This document shows, piece after piece, positions 39,857 through 61,034 of a stretch of 64,000 bases of DNA (within the stretch, counting starts at the first letter, position 1; each line of letters begins with the position of its first letter). A model generated the notes under the pieces. The model saw only the letters and a list, made by a program, of their open reading frames with translations. It was not told the DNA's origin and did not search any database. This DNA comes from Rhodovulum sp. MB263 (GTDB lineage: Bacteria > Pseudomonadota > Alphaproteobacteria > Rhodobacterales > Rhodobacteraceae), in contig NZ_CP020384.1 of NCBI RefSeq assembly GCF_002073975.1, positions 744,001 through 808,000 of the forward strand. The letters are read 5' to 3'. The translations under genes and the position numbers were made by a program.

Positions 39857-40186
39857 GGCCCTGGCCCTCCTTCGACCGTTCTGCCTGTCCCGACAGTCTG
39901 GCCGGGATGGCGCGATTTGTCAGCGCGTCGCAATGCGCCAAACGCGATTTGCCCCCGTGGGCGAAACCTCGCTGACGGGGGGCGATCCCGGCGACACGCC
40001 GGGACCGGACGGAGTTGCACCGACCGGAATTGCGCCCGCTTAAGCCATGAAAGGCGTCCGGAGTCAAGTCGGGGCCGGGCCGGTCGCCGGTGTCGGGCAT
40101 TTCGACAAGTTGGGCCTTGCTTCGGCTCTGGCAATTGCCCAGCATCCGCGGGAGTTGTGAATTTTTGCACAGGTGAAGCCTTCGTC
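39857..40186. other. Intergenic region between ffh and a LysR gene
   Basis: Both genes read outward, so their promoters lie here. An 8-bp perfect hairpin (TCCCGGCG-ACA-CGCCGGGA, 39986-40004) is present without a T-run. No gene is seen. Confidence 0.4.
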
Positions 40187-54895: not shown

Positions 54896-55993
<1,098 letters not shown>

Positions 55994-56184: not shown

Positions 56185-57744
56185 TCAGATCGCGGCCAGG
56201 TTCTCTTCGGGCCTGGTCTTCTCGCGCCGGACCATCAGCCGATTCAGGGCGTTCACATAGGCCTTGGCGCTGGCCACCACGGTATCGGTGTCCGAGGCCT
56301 GGCCGGTCGCGATCTTGCCGTCTTCCGACAGCCGCACGCTGACCGTGGCCTGGGCATCGGTGCCGCCGGTGACGGCATGGACCTGGTACAGCTCCAGATG
56401 CGCGTCATGCTCGACCAGCTTCTTCACCGCGGCGAAGGTGGCGTCGACGGGCCCGTCGCCCTGCGCCGTCACCCGGTGCTCGACCCCGTCGAGGGCGAGG
56501 ATCAGGTCGGCCGATTGCGGCGCCTCGGTGCCGCAGATCACCCGCAGGAACTTGACCTGGATGCGGTCATGCTCTGCATCGAGATCGCTGTCGCGCATCA
56601 GTGCCAGCAGGTCGTCGTCATAGACTTCCTTCTTGCGGTCGGCGAGCGCCTTGAACCGCACGAAGACGTCCTTCAGCTGGTTGTCGCCCAGATCGAAGCC
56701 CAGCTCCTTCATCTTCGAGCGCAGCGCGGCGCGGCCCGAATGCTTGCCCATCACCAGGTTCGTGGCATTGAGCCCGATATCAGCGGGGCGCATGATCTCG
56801 AAGGTCTCGGCATTCTTCAAAACGCCATCCTGGTGGATGCCGGATTCATGCGCGAAGGCGTTCTTGCCGACGATGGCCTTGTTGAACTGCACCGGAAAGC
56901 CCGAGACGGTGGCGACCTTGCGGCTCAGCCCCATGATCCGGGTGGTGTCGATGCCGGTCCGGAAGGGCATGATGTCGTTGCGCACCTTCAGCGCCATCAC
57001 CACCTCTTCGAGCGCAGTATTGCCAGCGCGTTCGCCAAGCCCGTTGATGGTGCATTCGATCTGCCTCGCACCGGCCTCGACTGCCGCCAGCGCGTTCGCC
57101 GTCGCCATGCCCAGATCGTTGTGGCAATGCGTCGCGAAGACGATCTCGTCGGCGCCGGGCACGCGTTCCAGCAGCATCTCGATCAGCTTGGCGCTTTCGC
57201 GGGGCGCGGTATAGCCCACCGTGTCGGGAATGTTGATGGTTGTGGCGCCCGCCCTGATCGCGGTCTCGACCACGCGGCAGAGGTAGTCATGCTCGGTCCG
57301 GGTCGCATCCATCGGCGACCATTGCACGTCGTCGCAGAGATTGCGGGCATGGGCCACGGTCGCCTCGATCCGCTCGACCATCTCGTCCTGCGTCAGCGCG
57401 GTGATGTCGCGATGCAGGGGCGATGTGCCGATGAAGGTGTGGATGCGCGGCCGGGCGGCATGCCGGACGGCGTCCCAGGCGCGGTCGATATCGGGGAACT
57501 GGGCGCGGGCCAGCCCGCAGATCACCGCGTTCTTCGACAGTTTGGCGATGTCGCTGACCGCCTCGAAATCGCCTTCCGAGGCGATCGGGAAGCCGGCCTC
57601 GATGATGTCGACGCCCATCTCGTCGAGCATCGCCGCGATTTCCAGTTTCTCGTCATGGGTCATGGTGGCGCCGGGGCTTTGCTCGCCGTCGCGCAGGGTG
57701 GTGTCGAATATCAGGACGCGGTCCTGGTGCGAATTCTCGCTCAT
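56185..57744 (-). CDS. leuA: 2-isopropylmalate synthase
   Basis: A 519-residue enzyme for the first committed step of leucine synthesis, acetyl-CoA plus 2-ketoisovalerate. The N-terminal HMGL-like barrel has IFDTTLRDGEQSPGA, EAGFPIAS, HCHNDLGMATAN and GERAGNTALEEV. The C-terminal regulatory LeuA dimer domain (about 390-510), which binds leucine for feedback inhibition, is complete. The start at 57744 is 42 bases downstream of a hairpin terminator, itself preceded by a leucine-rich leader peptide. Confidence 0.97.
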   Translation of the reverse strand: MSENSHQDRVLIFDTTLRDGEQSPGATMTHDEKLEIAAMLDEMGVDIIEAGFPIASEGDFEAVSDIAKLSKNAVICGLARAQFPDIDRAWDAVRHAARPRIHTFIGTSPLHRDITALTQDEMVERIEATVAHARNLCDDVQWSPMDATRTEHDYLCRVVETAIRAGATTINIPDTVGYTAPRESAKLIEMLLERVPGADEIVFATHCHNDLGMATANALAAVEAGARQIECTINGLGERAGNTALEEVVMALKVRNDIMPFRTGIDTTRIMGLSRKVATVSGFPVQFNKAIVGKNAFAHESGIHQDGVLKNAETFEIMRPADIGLNATNLVMGKHSGRAALRSKMKELGFDLGDNQLKDVFVRFKALADRKKEVYDDDLLALMRDSDLDAEHDRIQVKFLRVICGTEAPQSADLILALDGVEHRVTAQGDGPVDATFAAVKKLVEHDAHLELYQVHAVTGGTDAQATVSVRLSEDGKIATGQASDTDTVVASAKAYVNALNRLMVRREKTRPEENLAAI

Positions 57745-57785
57745 GACAGATTCTCTCTCTTCTTTAGCCTTGGGGAATGCGGCGC

Positions 57786-57831
57786 GAAAAATACCCTCTG
57801 AGCGGTCGCGCCTTCTCGGCACGCTCAGAGG
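57786..57831 (-). terminator. Attenuator hairpin upstream of leuA
   Basis: On the minus strand CCTCTGAGCG (57831-57822) pairs perfectly with CGCTCAGAGG (57804-57795), with a small inner stem GCC/GGC in the loop, and TATTTTT follows directly. It is a good Rho-independent terminator placed between the leader peptide and leuA. The TGA stop of the leader lies inside its 5' arm. Confidence 0.85.
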
Positions 57832-57914
57832 CGGCTAAGGAGAAGAAGAAGGCCGAGGGACAGCGCGCGCGCAGGCTGCGCGGCAAAGGATGTGATATGT
57901 CCGTGGCGTTCCAT
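57825..57914 (-). CDS. leuL: Leucine-rich leader peptide of leuA (attenuation)
   Basis: A 29-codon frame from ATG 57914 ends ALSLGLLLLLSRL-stop. It has five leucine codons in a row (CTT CTT CTT CTC CTT) and three more close by. The stop overlaps the 5' arm of the terminator hairpin. Ribosomes slowed at these codons when leucyl-tRNA is scarce would cover that arm and let RNA polymerase run on into leuA. There is no ribosome binding site; instead TATACT lies seven bases before the ATG, so the transcript may begin at or next to the AUG (leaderless). Confidence 0.85.
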   Translation of the reverse strand: MERHGHITSFAAQPARALSLGLLLLLSRL

Positions 57915-57922
57915 GGCACAGA

Positions 57923-57928
57923 GTATAA
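57923..57928 (-). promoter_or_regulatory. -10-like element TATACT of the leuA transcript
   Basis: TATACT on the minus strand ends seven bases before the leader ATG. No clear -35 is seen (TTTTCC lies about 19 bases upstream). The spacing implies that the start codon is at the 5' end of the mRNA. Confidence 0.45.
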
Positions 57929-58246
57929 GCGGCGCGGCCGGGCAGGAAAAGAGGCTTTCGCATTTCGCTCTGCGCGATGTGGCTGCCGCCCGGGGCGGGG
58001 CGCCGTTCGCGAAGGATCGCAGCGGGACCCGGTCGCAGGCGCCTCAGCTGATGCCGCGGACCCTGTCTGACAGGCGGGCATCTTGTGGGGGCTCGGCCAT
58101 GCCCAGGCTTTGGCGCGCCTTTGCAACCTCTCTCCGAAGCGATGCAGCGCGCGACGCTTCCCGAAGGGGGGCACTTTGCGGCCTGGCCCCTTGCGGCTTT
58201 CCTCGGGCGGCCCGGCAAAGGCCCCCGCACAATCCCGGTGCCTGTC
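57929..58246. other. No gene seen
   Basis: About 320 bases between the leuA promoter and the end of the gamma-glutamyltransferase gene. Frames here are shadow-like, and there is no distinct RNA feature. Confidence 0.45.
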
Positions 58247-60040
58247 TCAGCGGCCGAGCGCGATGCCCTCGCGGCGCGGATCGGCGCCGCCCTGCAGCCC
58301 GTCCCTGACCGAGATCGCATGCAGCCCCGAATTGAGCTCGCGCGCCCCGACCTCGAAGCCGAGGGCTGTCAGCGGCTCGGCAAGACCCTCGGCCGATGTG
58401 CCCGCTTCCAGATCGTAGGCGCCGAAGCGGTTCACGAGATGCGGCATCGCCACCGCCTGCTGCACATCCATCCCCCAGTCCAGATGCGCCAGGATGGCCT
58501 GCGCGACATAGCCGATGATCCGGCTGCCGCCCGGGCTGCCGATCACCAGCGAGGGCTTGCCCTCGGTCAGCACGATGGTCGGCGCCATAGACGAGCGCGG
58601 CCGCTTGCCGGGTTCGACCCGGTTGGCGATGGGCCGGCCGTCCTCATGGGTCTGGAACGAGAAATCGGTCAGTTCGTTGTTAAGCAGAAAGCCGCGCACG
58701 AAGAGCCGAGAGCCGAATCCGTTCTCGATGGTCGTGGTCATCGACAGCGCATTGCCCTCGGCATCGACGATCGAGATATGCGAGGTCGAGGGGAACTCGA
58801 TCGAGCGGTCATCGGCCCAAAGCCCGGCATGATCCCATTCGGGCCTGCCGGGGGCGGTCTCGGGCAGCGCGTCGTCGCCTTCCAGAAGTTTGGCGCGTTC
58901 GGCCAGATAGGCGGGGTCGAGCAGCCCTTTCGCGGGCACCGGTACGAAATCCGCATCGGCCATGTAGCGGCCCCGGTCGGCAAAGGCGAGCCGCGAGGCG
59001 TCGCCGATCAGCCGCCAGCTTTCGGGCGCTTCGGGACCGAGCGCCGCCAGATTGTAGGGTTCGAGCAGGCCCATGATCTGGCCCAGGGTCAGCCCGCCCG
59101 AAGAGGGCGGCCCCATCCCGCAGATCTCGTGCCCGCGATAGGGGGCGCAGACCGGGGCGCGTTCCTTCACCCGGTAAAGCGCCAGATCGATGCTCGACAG
59201 CAGCCCCGGATTGTCCTGGGCGCCGCGCACGGCCGCGACGACATCCTCGGCGATGGCGCCGGTATAGAAGGCGCGGCTGCCGTCCCGCGCGATCTGGCGC
59301 AGCGTGTCGGCATAGGCCGGGTTGACGAGCGTCGCGCCCGCGGCGATGGGTGCGCCGCCGGGGAAGAAATAGGCCTCGGTCGCGGGGTGGCGGCGCAGGC
59401 GCGCCTCATCGCCGGCGACCAGCTCTGCCAGCCGGGGCGAGACCTGAAAGCCCTTTTCGGCCAGCCGGGTGGCATCTTCGAAGAGATCGGGCCAGGCGAT
59501 CCGGCCCCAGCGCCGATGCGCCTCTTCCAGCAGCATCGGCGTGCCCGGCGTTCCGACCGAGCGCCCGCCCACGACCGCGTCATAGAAGGCCAGCGGTTCG
59601 CCCTCGGGGGTCTGGAACAATTGCGGCGTCGCGGCCAGGGGCGCGGTCTCGCGCCCGTCAAGCGTGGTCAGCTCGCCGGTTTCGGCATCGTACCACAGCA
59701 AGAAGGCGCCGCCGCCAAGCCCCGAGGATTGCGGCTCGACCAGCCCCAGCACCGTCTGCACCGCGACCATGGCATCGGCGGCACTGCCGCCCCGGGCAAG
59801 GATCGCTGCGCCCGCTTCGACCGCCAGCGGATTGGCGGCGGCGACCATCCAGTCCCGGGCTTCGGTCGGGCGGCCCGCCTCGCGGCTGTCCCAGGCGGCG
59901 CGGGCCTCGGGCGAGATCCCGGCAAAGGCCTCGGCCGCGGTCGTGGAAGCGGCTTCGGGCGCGACGGCATCGGCCGCCTCCTGTGCGATGGCTGCCCCGG
60001 CAAAAGCGCAGAGCAGCAGGGCAATCGGCCAGTTCGGCAT
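58247..60040 (-). CDS. ggt: Gamma-glutamyltransferase
   Basis: A 597-residue enzyme with a signal peptide (MPNWPIALLLCAFAGAAIAQ), so periplasmic. It cleaves glutathione and transfers the gamma-glutamyl group. The proenzyme cuts itself before the catalytic Thr in the block PSTSHISIVDAEGNALSMTTTIE (about residue 400). Other signatures are GGSAADAMVAVQTVLGLVEPQSSGLGGGAF, SSGGLTLGQ and SSMAPTIV ... GSPGGSRI. The frame is open upstream of the ATG, but the signal peptide fixes the start. A site GGAGG lies just upstream. Confidence 0.96.
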   Translation of the reverse strand: MPNWPIALLLCAFAGAAIAQEAADAVAPEAASTTAAEAFAGISPEARAAWDSREAGRPTEARDWMVAAANPLAVEAGAAILARGGSAADAMVAVQTVLGLVEPQSSGLGGGAFLLWYDAETGELTTLDGRETAPLAATPQLFQTPEGEPLAFYDAVVGGRSVGTPGTPMLLEEAHRRWGRIAWPDLFEDATRLAEKGFQVSPRLAELVAGDEARLRRHPATEAYFFPGGAPIAAGATLVNPAYADTLRQIARDGSRAFYTGAIAEDVVAAVRGAQDNPGLLSSIDLALYRVKERAPVCAPYRGHEICGMGPPSSGGLTLGQIMGLLEPYNLAALGPEAPESWRLIGDASRLAFADRGRYMADADFVPVPAKGLLDPAYLAERAKLLEGDDALPETAPGRPEWDHAGLWADDRSIEFPSTSHISIVDAEGNALSMTTTIENGFGSRLFVRGFLLNNELTDFSFQTHEDGRPIANRVEPGKRPRSSMAPTIVLTEGKPSLVIGSPGGSRIIGYVAQAILAHLDWGMDVQQAVAMPHLVNRFGAYDLEAGTSAEGLAEPLTALGFEVGARELNSGLHAISVRDGLQGGADPRREGIALGR

Positions 60041-61034
60041 CTCGGTCTCCTCCCTCTTCGGCATATGTTCGTCCAGCCTACACGTCATGGGCGAGATGCC
60101 GAAGCGCCGGGAACCGTGACCTGACGGAAGCCTGCGGCCTTTCGCCGGTTGGCCGGGGCGCGATGCAGGACCATGCGTTTTGGGCCGCTGCCCCGACGCG
60201 TCATCGTCCGTCCTCTGCCGTTGCGGGCCGGGTCTGTCTTGTCGCCGCGGAAGGCCCCGGCCCTGAGGGGGACGCCCGCCTTGACCCGGAACAAGACCCA
60301 TGCCCGTCGCCAATCGCATCGCCGCGGCGGCTTTCCCGGGCGCGCGCCGTGGGGACCGGTGACGGCTGCCTCATCCCGAAGACGCGGCCGGAGCCTTCGA
60401 AATCGCGGTTTTCGCGGCGGCGTCCGATCCTTTGCCTGCCTTTGCCGAGCGGCGCCCCCCTGCGCGACCGCGCGTCACCAACCGGGACGGCACAGGCGTG
60501 AAACGGTCGACCGGCGCTGCCTTGCGGGCGGGGGCGACGCTGGCGCACCGGGAGGGTGCTGGCGCGGGCCCGAAGGCACGCAGCGCGTGTCGTTTGCGGT
60601 GACCGGGCCCAAAGCGCGCCTCCGGGCGGCCCGTGGCCTATCCATGTCGGGCCCAGGGCATTCAGGCCGGGGCCTGCCCGGAGCGGTGCCGACCCGGTCC
60701 ATGGGCATGCTGCCGGTGCGGACCCGTCGCTCTCGCTCTCCTGCCCGACCATGACGATTTCCGGCGTCACGCCCTTCTTCGGGCGAGGGGCGTCGCGGAC
60801 CTGCCCGGGCCGACCTTTGCCGTCCGGAGGCGCTGACAGCCTCCGGCCCGCCCCGGAGCGGCATGCTTGTCATTGCAGGCTTCTCCCGGCGCCCGGCGGT
60901 GTCCTAACCGGGCCGCAGCAACAGCCGCACCGCGAAGAATCCGCCCGGCCGGAATGACGCGGCTCGCGGCCCGGATTTCCTTCGAATTTTCTCTTGACGC
61001 CCCCGGCCGCCTCCCTTACTCAGCGCGCACTCTT
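60041..61034. other. Long gene-free GC-rich stretch
   Basis: Almost 1 kb upstream of ggt and ahead of tRNA-Met. Frames on both strands are random in look (Arg, Pro, Gly rich, no family pattern). I looked for a cobalamin riboswitch box because B12 genes follow, and found none. Degraded genes may lie here but are not recognisable. Confidence 0.45.

Follow-up and report, generated by a model that had tools for sequence, protein, structure and literature searches.

The leuA leader locus

We have examined a window of 64,000 nucleotides from Rhodovulum sp. MB263 (contig NZ_CP020384.1, positions 744,001 to 808,000; all coordinates below are those of the window) and in particular the short region that precedes its leuA gene, which encodes 2-isopropylmalate synthase (NCBIfam equivalog, E value 4e-254, an identification on which two libraries agree). 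An earlier note, made from the letters of the sequence, had placed a leucine attenuator here: a leader of 29 codons with five consecutive leucine (Leu) codons, ending inside the 5' arm of a 10-bp hairpin that is followed by TATTTTT 42 bases before leuA, with TATACT seven bases before the leader ATG. The leader open reading frame (ORF), Leu run, hairpin, T-run and TATACT (57927-57922) are all found on the minus strand at the positions first reported; the leader translates as MERHGHITSFAAQPARALSLGLLLLLSRL, the TGA that ends it (57827-57825) falls within the 5' arm of the hairpin, and 42 bases do separate TATTTTT from the leuA ATG at 57744. The structure of the window goes beyond that first description in two respects, a base helix that joins the Leu codons to the stretch before leuA and a pseudoknot formed by the hairpin loop. 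From the promoter to the gene, the parts are as follows.

57945..57951, minus strand: putative -35-like box CTTTTCC, not TTGACA, 17-18 bases before the -10 box
57922..57927, minus strand: leader promoter, -10 box TATACT (seven bases ahead of the leader ATG)
57825..57914, minus strand: leader peptide ORF of 29 codons, probably leaderless (sequence and leader comparison)
57837..57851, minus strand: five consecutive Leu codons, CTT CTT CTT CTC CTT, four of them inside the base-helix stretch
57833..57846, minus strand: base helix, 5' strand in two parts (57846-57841 and 57838-57833) around a two-base bulge, from the fold, duplex energy and covariation
57822..57831, minus strand: 5' arm of hairpin P1, CCTCTGAGCG, which holds the leader stop codon (alignments)
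57818..57821, minus strand: strand A (TGCC), which can pair with B inside the hairpin as an alternative to B-C
57807..57812, minus strand: strand B (GGCGCG), in the P1 loop (segment and alignment comparison)
57795..57804, minus strand: 3' arm of P1, CGCTCAGAGG (alignments)
57787..57793, minus strand: TATTTTT after P1, not conserved (TTTTT in the window and locus L083 only)
57781..57786, minus strand: strand C (CGCGCC), which pairs with B across the 3' arm to form the pseudoknot
57758..57769, minus strand: base helix, 3' strand (GGCTAAAGAAGA), 14-25 bases ahead of the leuA ATG
56185..57744, minus strand: leuA, 2-isopropylmalate synthase, 519 amino acids (library matches)

The base helix between Leu codons and pre-start region

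In the minimum free energy fold of the window the Leu codons pair with the stretch before leuA, forming a duplex of -18.0 kcal/mol. Such a fold is not unusual for a single sequence (z -0.95, with 40 of 200 shuffles folding equally well), and the evidence for structure is therefore comparative. The first set of leuA loci came from 80 named genomes and 30 relatives of the window genome, less L072, where the leuA start is missing; L010 and L067, which are false anchors, were removed along with L076-L081 before covariation was counted. The second set began as 93 loci and was reduced to 84 by the removal of nine duplicates (L162 and L173 have no in-frame ATG). Throughout, "family" means that of the window genome and "class" the Alphaproteobacteria. 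Of 101 loci gathered for the set outside the family, anchoring failed for 12 and a leuA start was missing in 5; the 74 distinct ones within 330 bases were kept, six of them from the named genomes of the first set. When the whole leader-to-leuA stretch was aligned with MAFFT the 3' partner strand came out of register, and covariation was therefore counted segment by segment.

One sign of this pairing is the hexamer CTTAGC, made up of the last Leu codon and the bases that follow it. Its complement GCTAAG stands downstream in 33 of the 53 first-set loci that have CTTAGC, against 1 of the 43 others; in the second, mostly separate set, leaving out eight loci whose leader is far from leuA, the figures are 28/52 and 0/24. 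Leaders with a variant hexamer sometimes carry the exact complement of their own version, which in the first set is CGTAAG for CTTACG (four loci), GCTTAG for CTAAGC (three), GATTAG for CTAATC, AATAAG for CTTATT and ACCAAG for CTTGGT. Duplex energies between leader tail and pre-start region tell a similar story, own partners giving -15.6 kcal/mol and swapped ones -13.2 in the family (172 of 182 loci), and -17.3 against -13.0 outside it (n=74), differences reached in 0 of 2000 permutations each, although these counts are not clean probabilities. The exact six-base partner ends a median of 20 bases before the start codon (interquartile range 17-22, 75 loci). Since the Leu codons covary with the pre-start region, the pairing points to a control of translation.

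The choice of Leu codons is also peculiar. CTT makes up 38.6% and CTA 12.1% of the Leu codons in the leaders, while in leuA itself, at the same loci, the shares are 7.3% and 1.0% (together 51% versus 8%), and the last Leu codon of the leader is CTT or CTA in 95 of 99 cases. This preference could both slow decoding and supply pairing bases. The typical family leader ends in LLLLSRL, from CTT AGC CGC CTC TGA at its end. Outside the family the tails read LRL in 43 of 74 loci (L146, L147, L150, L153, L229, L232, L237, L243 and others) and LLL in 29 of 74. The Leu-Arg-Leu tails often use the arginine (Arg) codon CGA (CTTCGACTTA), and UCGAAG-like pre-start stretches accompany 11 of 24 such leaders as against 10 of the 50 others, a difference that is suggestive only.

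Loci with an intervening cupin gene

In 8 of the 84 second-set loci (L128, L138, L141, L142, L145, L174, L177 and L197) a gene of about 118 codons stands between the leader and leuA; that of L128, the one tested, is a cupin (Pfam Cupin_2). The same arrangement is seen upstream of leuA in L010 and L034 of the first set. In all eight of the second-set loci the partner strand of the base helix is located just before the start of the cupin gene; its match is exact in L128 (GCTAAGGAG), L142, L145 (GATTAGGA, where the leader reads CTCCTAATC) and L177, and near-exact in L138, L141, L174 and L197. From its position in these loci, the partner strand goes with the first gene of the operon, as judged by sequence comparison. 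The stop codon of the cupin gene is 42-49 bases before the conserved LeuA core, and leuA may be translationally coupled to it.

These rearranged loci bear on the idea that control is exerted on transcription with no intrinsic terminator, translation of the leader governing the access of Rho, or the stability of the RNA, between leader and leuA, while the structure acts as a pause or protection element. Leader peptides with no obvious terminator are known, and for the cys leaders Rho has been proposed (PMC1262725). A mechanism of this kind does not, however, predict that the partner of the base helix should stay near the first start codon, even when that codon belongs to a cupin gene, and we consider it unlikely.

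The hairpin and the T-run behind it

In the window the ten base pairs of P1 are without a mismatch, and G and TATTTTT come next. The stem itself is preserved elsewhere, with 98.8% of cells paired and double changes in three of its ten pairs (97.2% of cells in the class set), in loci that were chosen for having it; in the second set and most of those from outside the family, which were picked by model match, the hairpin is present by construction. The T-run is another matter. TTTTT follows P1 in 2 of 182 family loci, the window and its sister L083, and at least four T among the first eight bases in 10 of 182 (6/107 in the first set, two of them false anchors, and 4/84 in the second); outside the family such T-rich stretches follow in 8 of 74 loci. 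An intrinsic terminator as a conserved design must accordingly be rejected, and because the T-run is so rare in family loci, the earlier proposal that a ribosome stalled on the Leu run would cover the 5' arm of a terminator does not describe a conserved design either. A scan for terminators found none, but it was limited to loops of 3-8 bases and thus blind to P1. In the window species the T-run could still add some termination.

Taken by itself, the window makes a tempting case for transcription attenuation, in which the hairpin and TATTTTT would be an intrinsic terminator whose formation is prevented by a ribosome stalled on the Leu codons: the stem is perfect, TATTTTT comes one G after it, the leader overlaps the 5' arm and, in the Rhodobacterales, cysS is preceded by a leader with a terminator (PMC8632094). 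The scarcity of T-runs inside and outside the family speaks against this, and the covarying pairing with the pre-start region would be left unexplained, so that we find this account improbable. To call a leader with a hairpin a terminator from one sequence is risky.

Alternative pairings of the hairpin loop

Strand B in the loop has two possible partners, A within the hairpin and C beyond its 3' arm; A-B and B-C are mutually exclusive, and neither uses the arms of P1. Among 96 family loci of the first set the longest perfect B-C run averages 6.51 bp with the locus's own partner, 5.71 with swapped partners (0 of 1000) and 4.29 with shuffled ones. The difference is smaller in the second family set (6.49 bp own, 6.21 swapped, 1/1000). 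B and C vary together, for example GGTGCG with CGCACC. An alignment of 88 of the 96 distinct loci (A1, made with MAFFT; L003, L016, L026, L050, L059, L066, L102 and L110 were left out for an odd B-C or P1) has 89.8% of the B-C cells paired and a double change in one of the six pairs, a count that probably understates the pairing because strand C is misaligned in some rows. For A-B, 95.3% of cells are paired, with a double change in one of four pairs. Over the whole A1 structure, the number of double-changed pairs was reached by 46 of 500 shuffles, and the number of double-changed cells and the covariation score by none of the 500. A second alignment (A2) holds 15 of 24 picked family sequences and 14 others. 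Outside the family the pseudoknot was not detected (4.66 bp own against 4.57 swapped, 203/1000); a few Bradyrhizobium-like loci (L077, L080 and L225) do show the pairing.

Conservation and spread

Three or more Leu codons in a row occur in an upstream ORF in 95 of the 109 first-set loci that have a leuA start, the window included (L077 is counted here, but its run does not belong to the element's own ORF). Ten of the remaining 14 have a hairpin near leuA, mostly with a broken run such as Leu-Ile-Leu. In L034 and L060 no hairpin is present near leuA. For L010 and L034, which have no Leu run nearby, the element was found further upstream, beyond the cupin gene; no hairpin element was found in L060, which was also checked further upstream, or in L067.

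A covariance model of 88 elements has one match each in 286 of 295 family genomes, and leuA is downstream of all 42 matches that were fetched, the window's own among them. As the element occurs once per genome in so many members of the family, the combination of leader and hairpin is more than chance, and the check proposed in the earlier note, whether Leu codons and hairpin are kept together before leuA in relatives, comes out in its favour. In a draw of 385 genomes from the class this model matches 13, five of these in the family. A broader model that includes distant members matches 95 of 385 class genomes, once each, and 34 of 249 in a draw from the phylum, all 34 being labelled as members of the class. 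With the broader model leuA is downstream in 37 of 38 fetched loci; none was seen in L235.

The start of the leader

A strict -10 criterion was the sole basis for choosing the leader ATG, and 106 of 182 leaders pass it, while 76 of 182 have no strict -10 box; where a leader offered several -10/ATG candidates, ties went to the gap nearest seven. In all 106 leaders the TGA of the hairpin is in frame with the ATG so chosen and the frame between them is open, giving lengths of 15-38 codons. The gap between -10 box and ATG is 6-9 bases, C directly precedes the ATG in 92 of the 106, and the tetramers AGGA, GGAG, GAGG and AAGG are absent at the usual Shine-Dalgarno distance in every one of them. Because the ATG is in frame, the gap narrow and no Shine-Dalgarno-like tetramer present, a leaderless start is favoured: the transcript probably begins at the AUG or within a few bases of it, to judge by the promoter spacing, much as the earlier note had supposed. 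Of the 74 loci outside the family, 62 offer an ATG in frame at a distance of no more than 60 codons.

In place of TTGACA, the leader promoters have in common a CTTTTC/CTTTCC-like box some 17-18 bases ahead of the -10 box; the consensus over the 106 leaders is cTTtcCtTt, 17 bases before the -10 box. Codons 6-7 of the window leader (57914-57825) are CAT ATC, and a histidine-isoleucine (His-Ile) pair occupies codons 6-7 or 7-8 in 69 of the 106 leaders, 63 of which use CAT. Unlike the His codon of the leader, CAT and CAC are roughly equal in the leuA genes, and the His-Ile stretch may be a signal at the nucleotide level.

A probable translational attenuator of the LEU-element kind

The LEU element, described in front of leuA in Actinobacteria, combines a Leu leader with a base stem between Leu run and Shine-Dalgarno box, a pseudoknot and an alternative hairpin (PMC1262725). 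The element before leuA in the window has the same parts: a Leu-run leader (95 of 109 loci), a base stem, a pseudoknot (within the family) and an alternative hairpin. The best explanation, to which we give a probability of roughly 0.6, is a translational attenuator that depends on leucine and is built like the LEU element. To judge by the promoter spacing, the messenger RNA would begin at the leader AUG or no more than a few bases from it. When leucine is plentiful, the ribosome would translate the leader, stop at the UGA in the hairpin and leave; the hairpin would then form, together with the pseudoknot in the family, and the Leu-codon stretch would pair with the bases immediately ahead of the leuA start codon and make it harder for ribosomes to enter. 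Under a shortage of leucyl-tRNA, the ribosome would instead stall on the rare CUU and CUC codons, occupying the 5' strand of the base helix, so that the leuA start would stay open and its translation be freed. Comparison supports the leader, the hairpin, the base helix and, within the family, the pseudoknot pairing; the succession of steps, any influence on translation and the 5' end at the AUG are inferred.

A model of accessibility, in which RNAs were folded with no pseudoknot and the ribosome footprint was blocked (167 of 182 loci), goes some way in the same direction. A ribosome stalled on the Leu run raises the mean accessibility of the pre-start region from 0.54 to 0.62, with an increase in 110 of 167 loci (P about 1e-7), and one placed further upstream gives no rise (0.53).

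Several observations weigh against a translational attenuator. The modelled gain is modest, and the start codons had been chosen by the best Shine-Dalgarno-like match. A ribosome placed on the stop codon opens the pre-start region too (mean 0.61), and in the window itself accessibility is 0.30 for the free RNA and hardly differs between a stalled and an upstream ribosome (0.551 and 0.549). An exact six-base partner is present in only 75 of 167 loci, and the share of variant leaders with the exact complement of their own hexamer is low, at 10/43 in the first set and 4/24 in the second; one of the ten in the first set, ACCAAG, is common elsewhere. In the family the partner strand does not as a rule cover the Shine-Dalgarno position but sits upstream of it, and shared ancestry remains in the swap permutations. 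Finally, codon mutations in the Streptomyces leuA leader gave effects inconsistent with classical attenuation, and the same source says elsewhere that mutating the Leu codons leaves regulation uninfluenced (PMC1262725).

The authors of the LEU-element study left its mode of action open and leaned towards a binding protein (PMC1262725). Applied to the window, this would make the RNA the target of a binding protein or of a small molecule, with the leader peptide secondary. The near-invariant CTTA and TGAG stretches would suit such a site, as would the preference of those authors in 2005; against it, the most conserved bases are in paired arms or codons, the frame is kept in every testable leader (106/106) despite lengths of 15-38 codons, and Leu codons dominate the family tail. 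We regard this possibility, too, as quite doubtful when set beside the leucine-dependent attenuator.

Relation to known leaders

No terminator is described in the consulted part of the LEU-element account (PMC1262725), and likewise none is conserved here. The likeness is one of architecture, compared by description, and the element of the window belongs to another phylum, its leader being probably leaderless, its stop codon placed in the hairpin arm and its pseudoknot detectable only inside the family.

Among leaderless leaders, a close parallel is trpL of Sinorhizobium meliloti, whose transcript starts at the AUG of the leader ORF (PMC10117765, PMC7298713). It shares with the leuA element an alphaproteobacterial host, a leaderless ORF (here a probable one) and regulatory codons ahead of a biosynthetic gene, but trpL has a terminator at its end and gives rise to a small RNA, whereas the leuA element has no conserved terminator. 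By analogy with peTrpL and rnTrpL (PMC7298713), the leader RNA or peptide of leuA might act in trans as well, and the conserved His-Ile pair of 69 of 106 leaders would fit a function of that sort. With no terminator, however, a separate small RNA is not expected in most relatives, and we rate an action in trans as highly improbable. The uORFC-8-2 motif before cysS (PMC8632094) comes from the same order, the Rhodobacterales, and is also a leader peptide with regulatory codons; it differs in having a U-run in all cases, Cys codons and a place before cysS. The word leuA is absent from the main text of that paper.

A literature search, partial in its coverage of subscription journals, found no description of this element in Alphaproteobacteria. 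In the enteric leuABCD operon the leucine attenuator has a leader peptide with consecutive Leu codons before leuA. The window element shares those codons; what it lacks is a conserved intrinsic terminator between leader and gene, another part of a classical attenuator, and a match in Rfam. A study by Vitreschak et al. from 2004 reportedly deals with attenuators of alpha-proteobacteria, and leuA could already be among them.

It is tempting, though tentative, to see the alphaproteobacterial leuA leader as a ribosome-gated translational switch in which the Leu codons double as the antisense strand for the start region of the first gene. If so, the design shared with the LEU element would mean that leucine attenuation without a terminator arose either once, long ago, or twice by convergence. 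This matters for the actinobacterial system as well, where the mode of action was left open in 2005 and the Streptomyces mutation data are unlike classical attenuation (PMC1262725). A second, widespread set from Alphaproteobacteria, with its covariation and the cupin rearrangement, makes the translational model directly testable.

Other features of the window

The leader region has a single match within its own genome. Rhodovulum robiginosum has the nearest LeuA in the set of 80 named loci (87%), and other genomes of the same genus reach up to 97%. Against Rfam 15 at the curated threshold the leuA leader matched no family, and at a relaxed threshold only a chance-level match (E value 3.9), on the opposite strand, was obtained. 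Also on the minus strand, leuA has mreB downstream of it (54896-55978) and a gamma-glutamyltransferase gene upstream (58247-60319). Elsewhere in the window there is an ffh-type small RNA (Rfam RF01793, 59.7 bits, 39944-39996, minus strand), as well as three tRNA genes.
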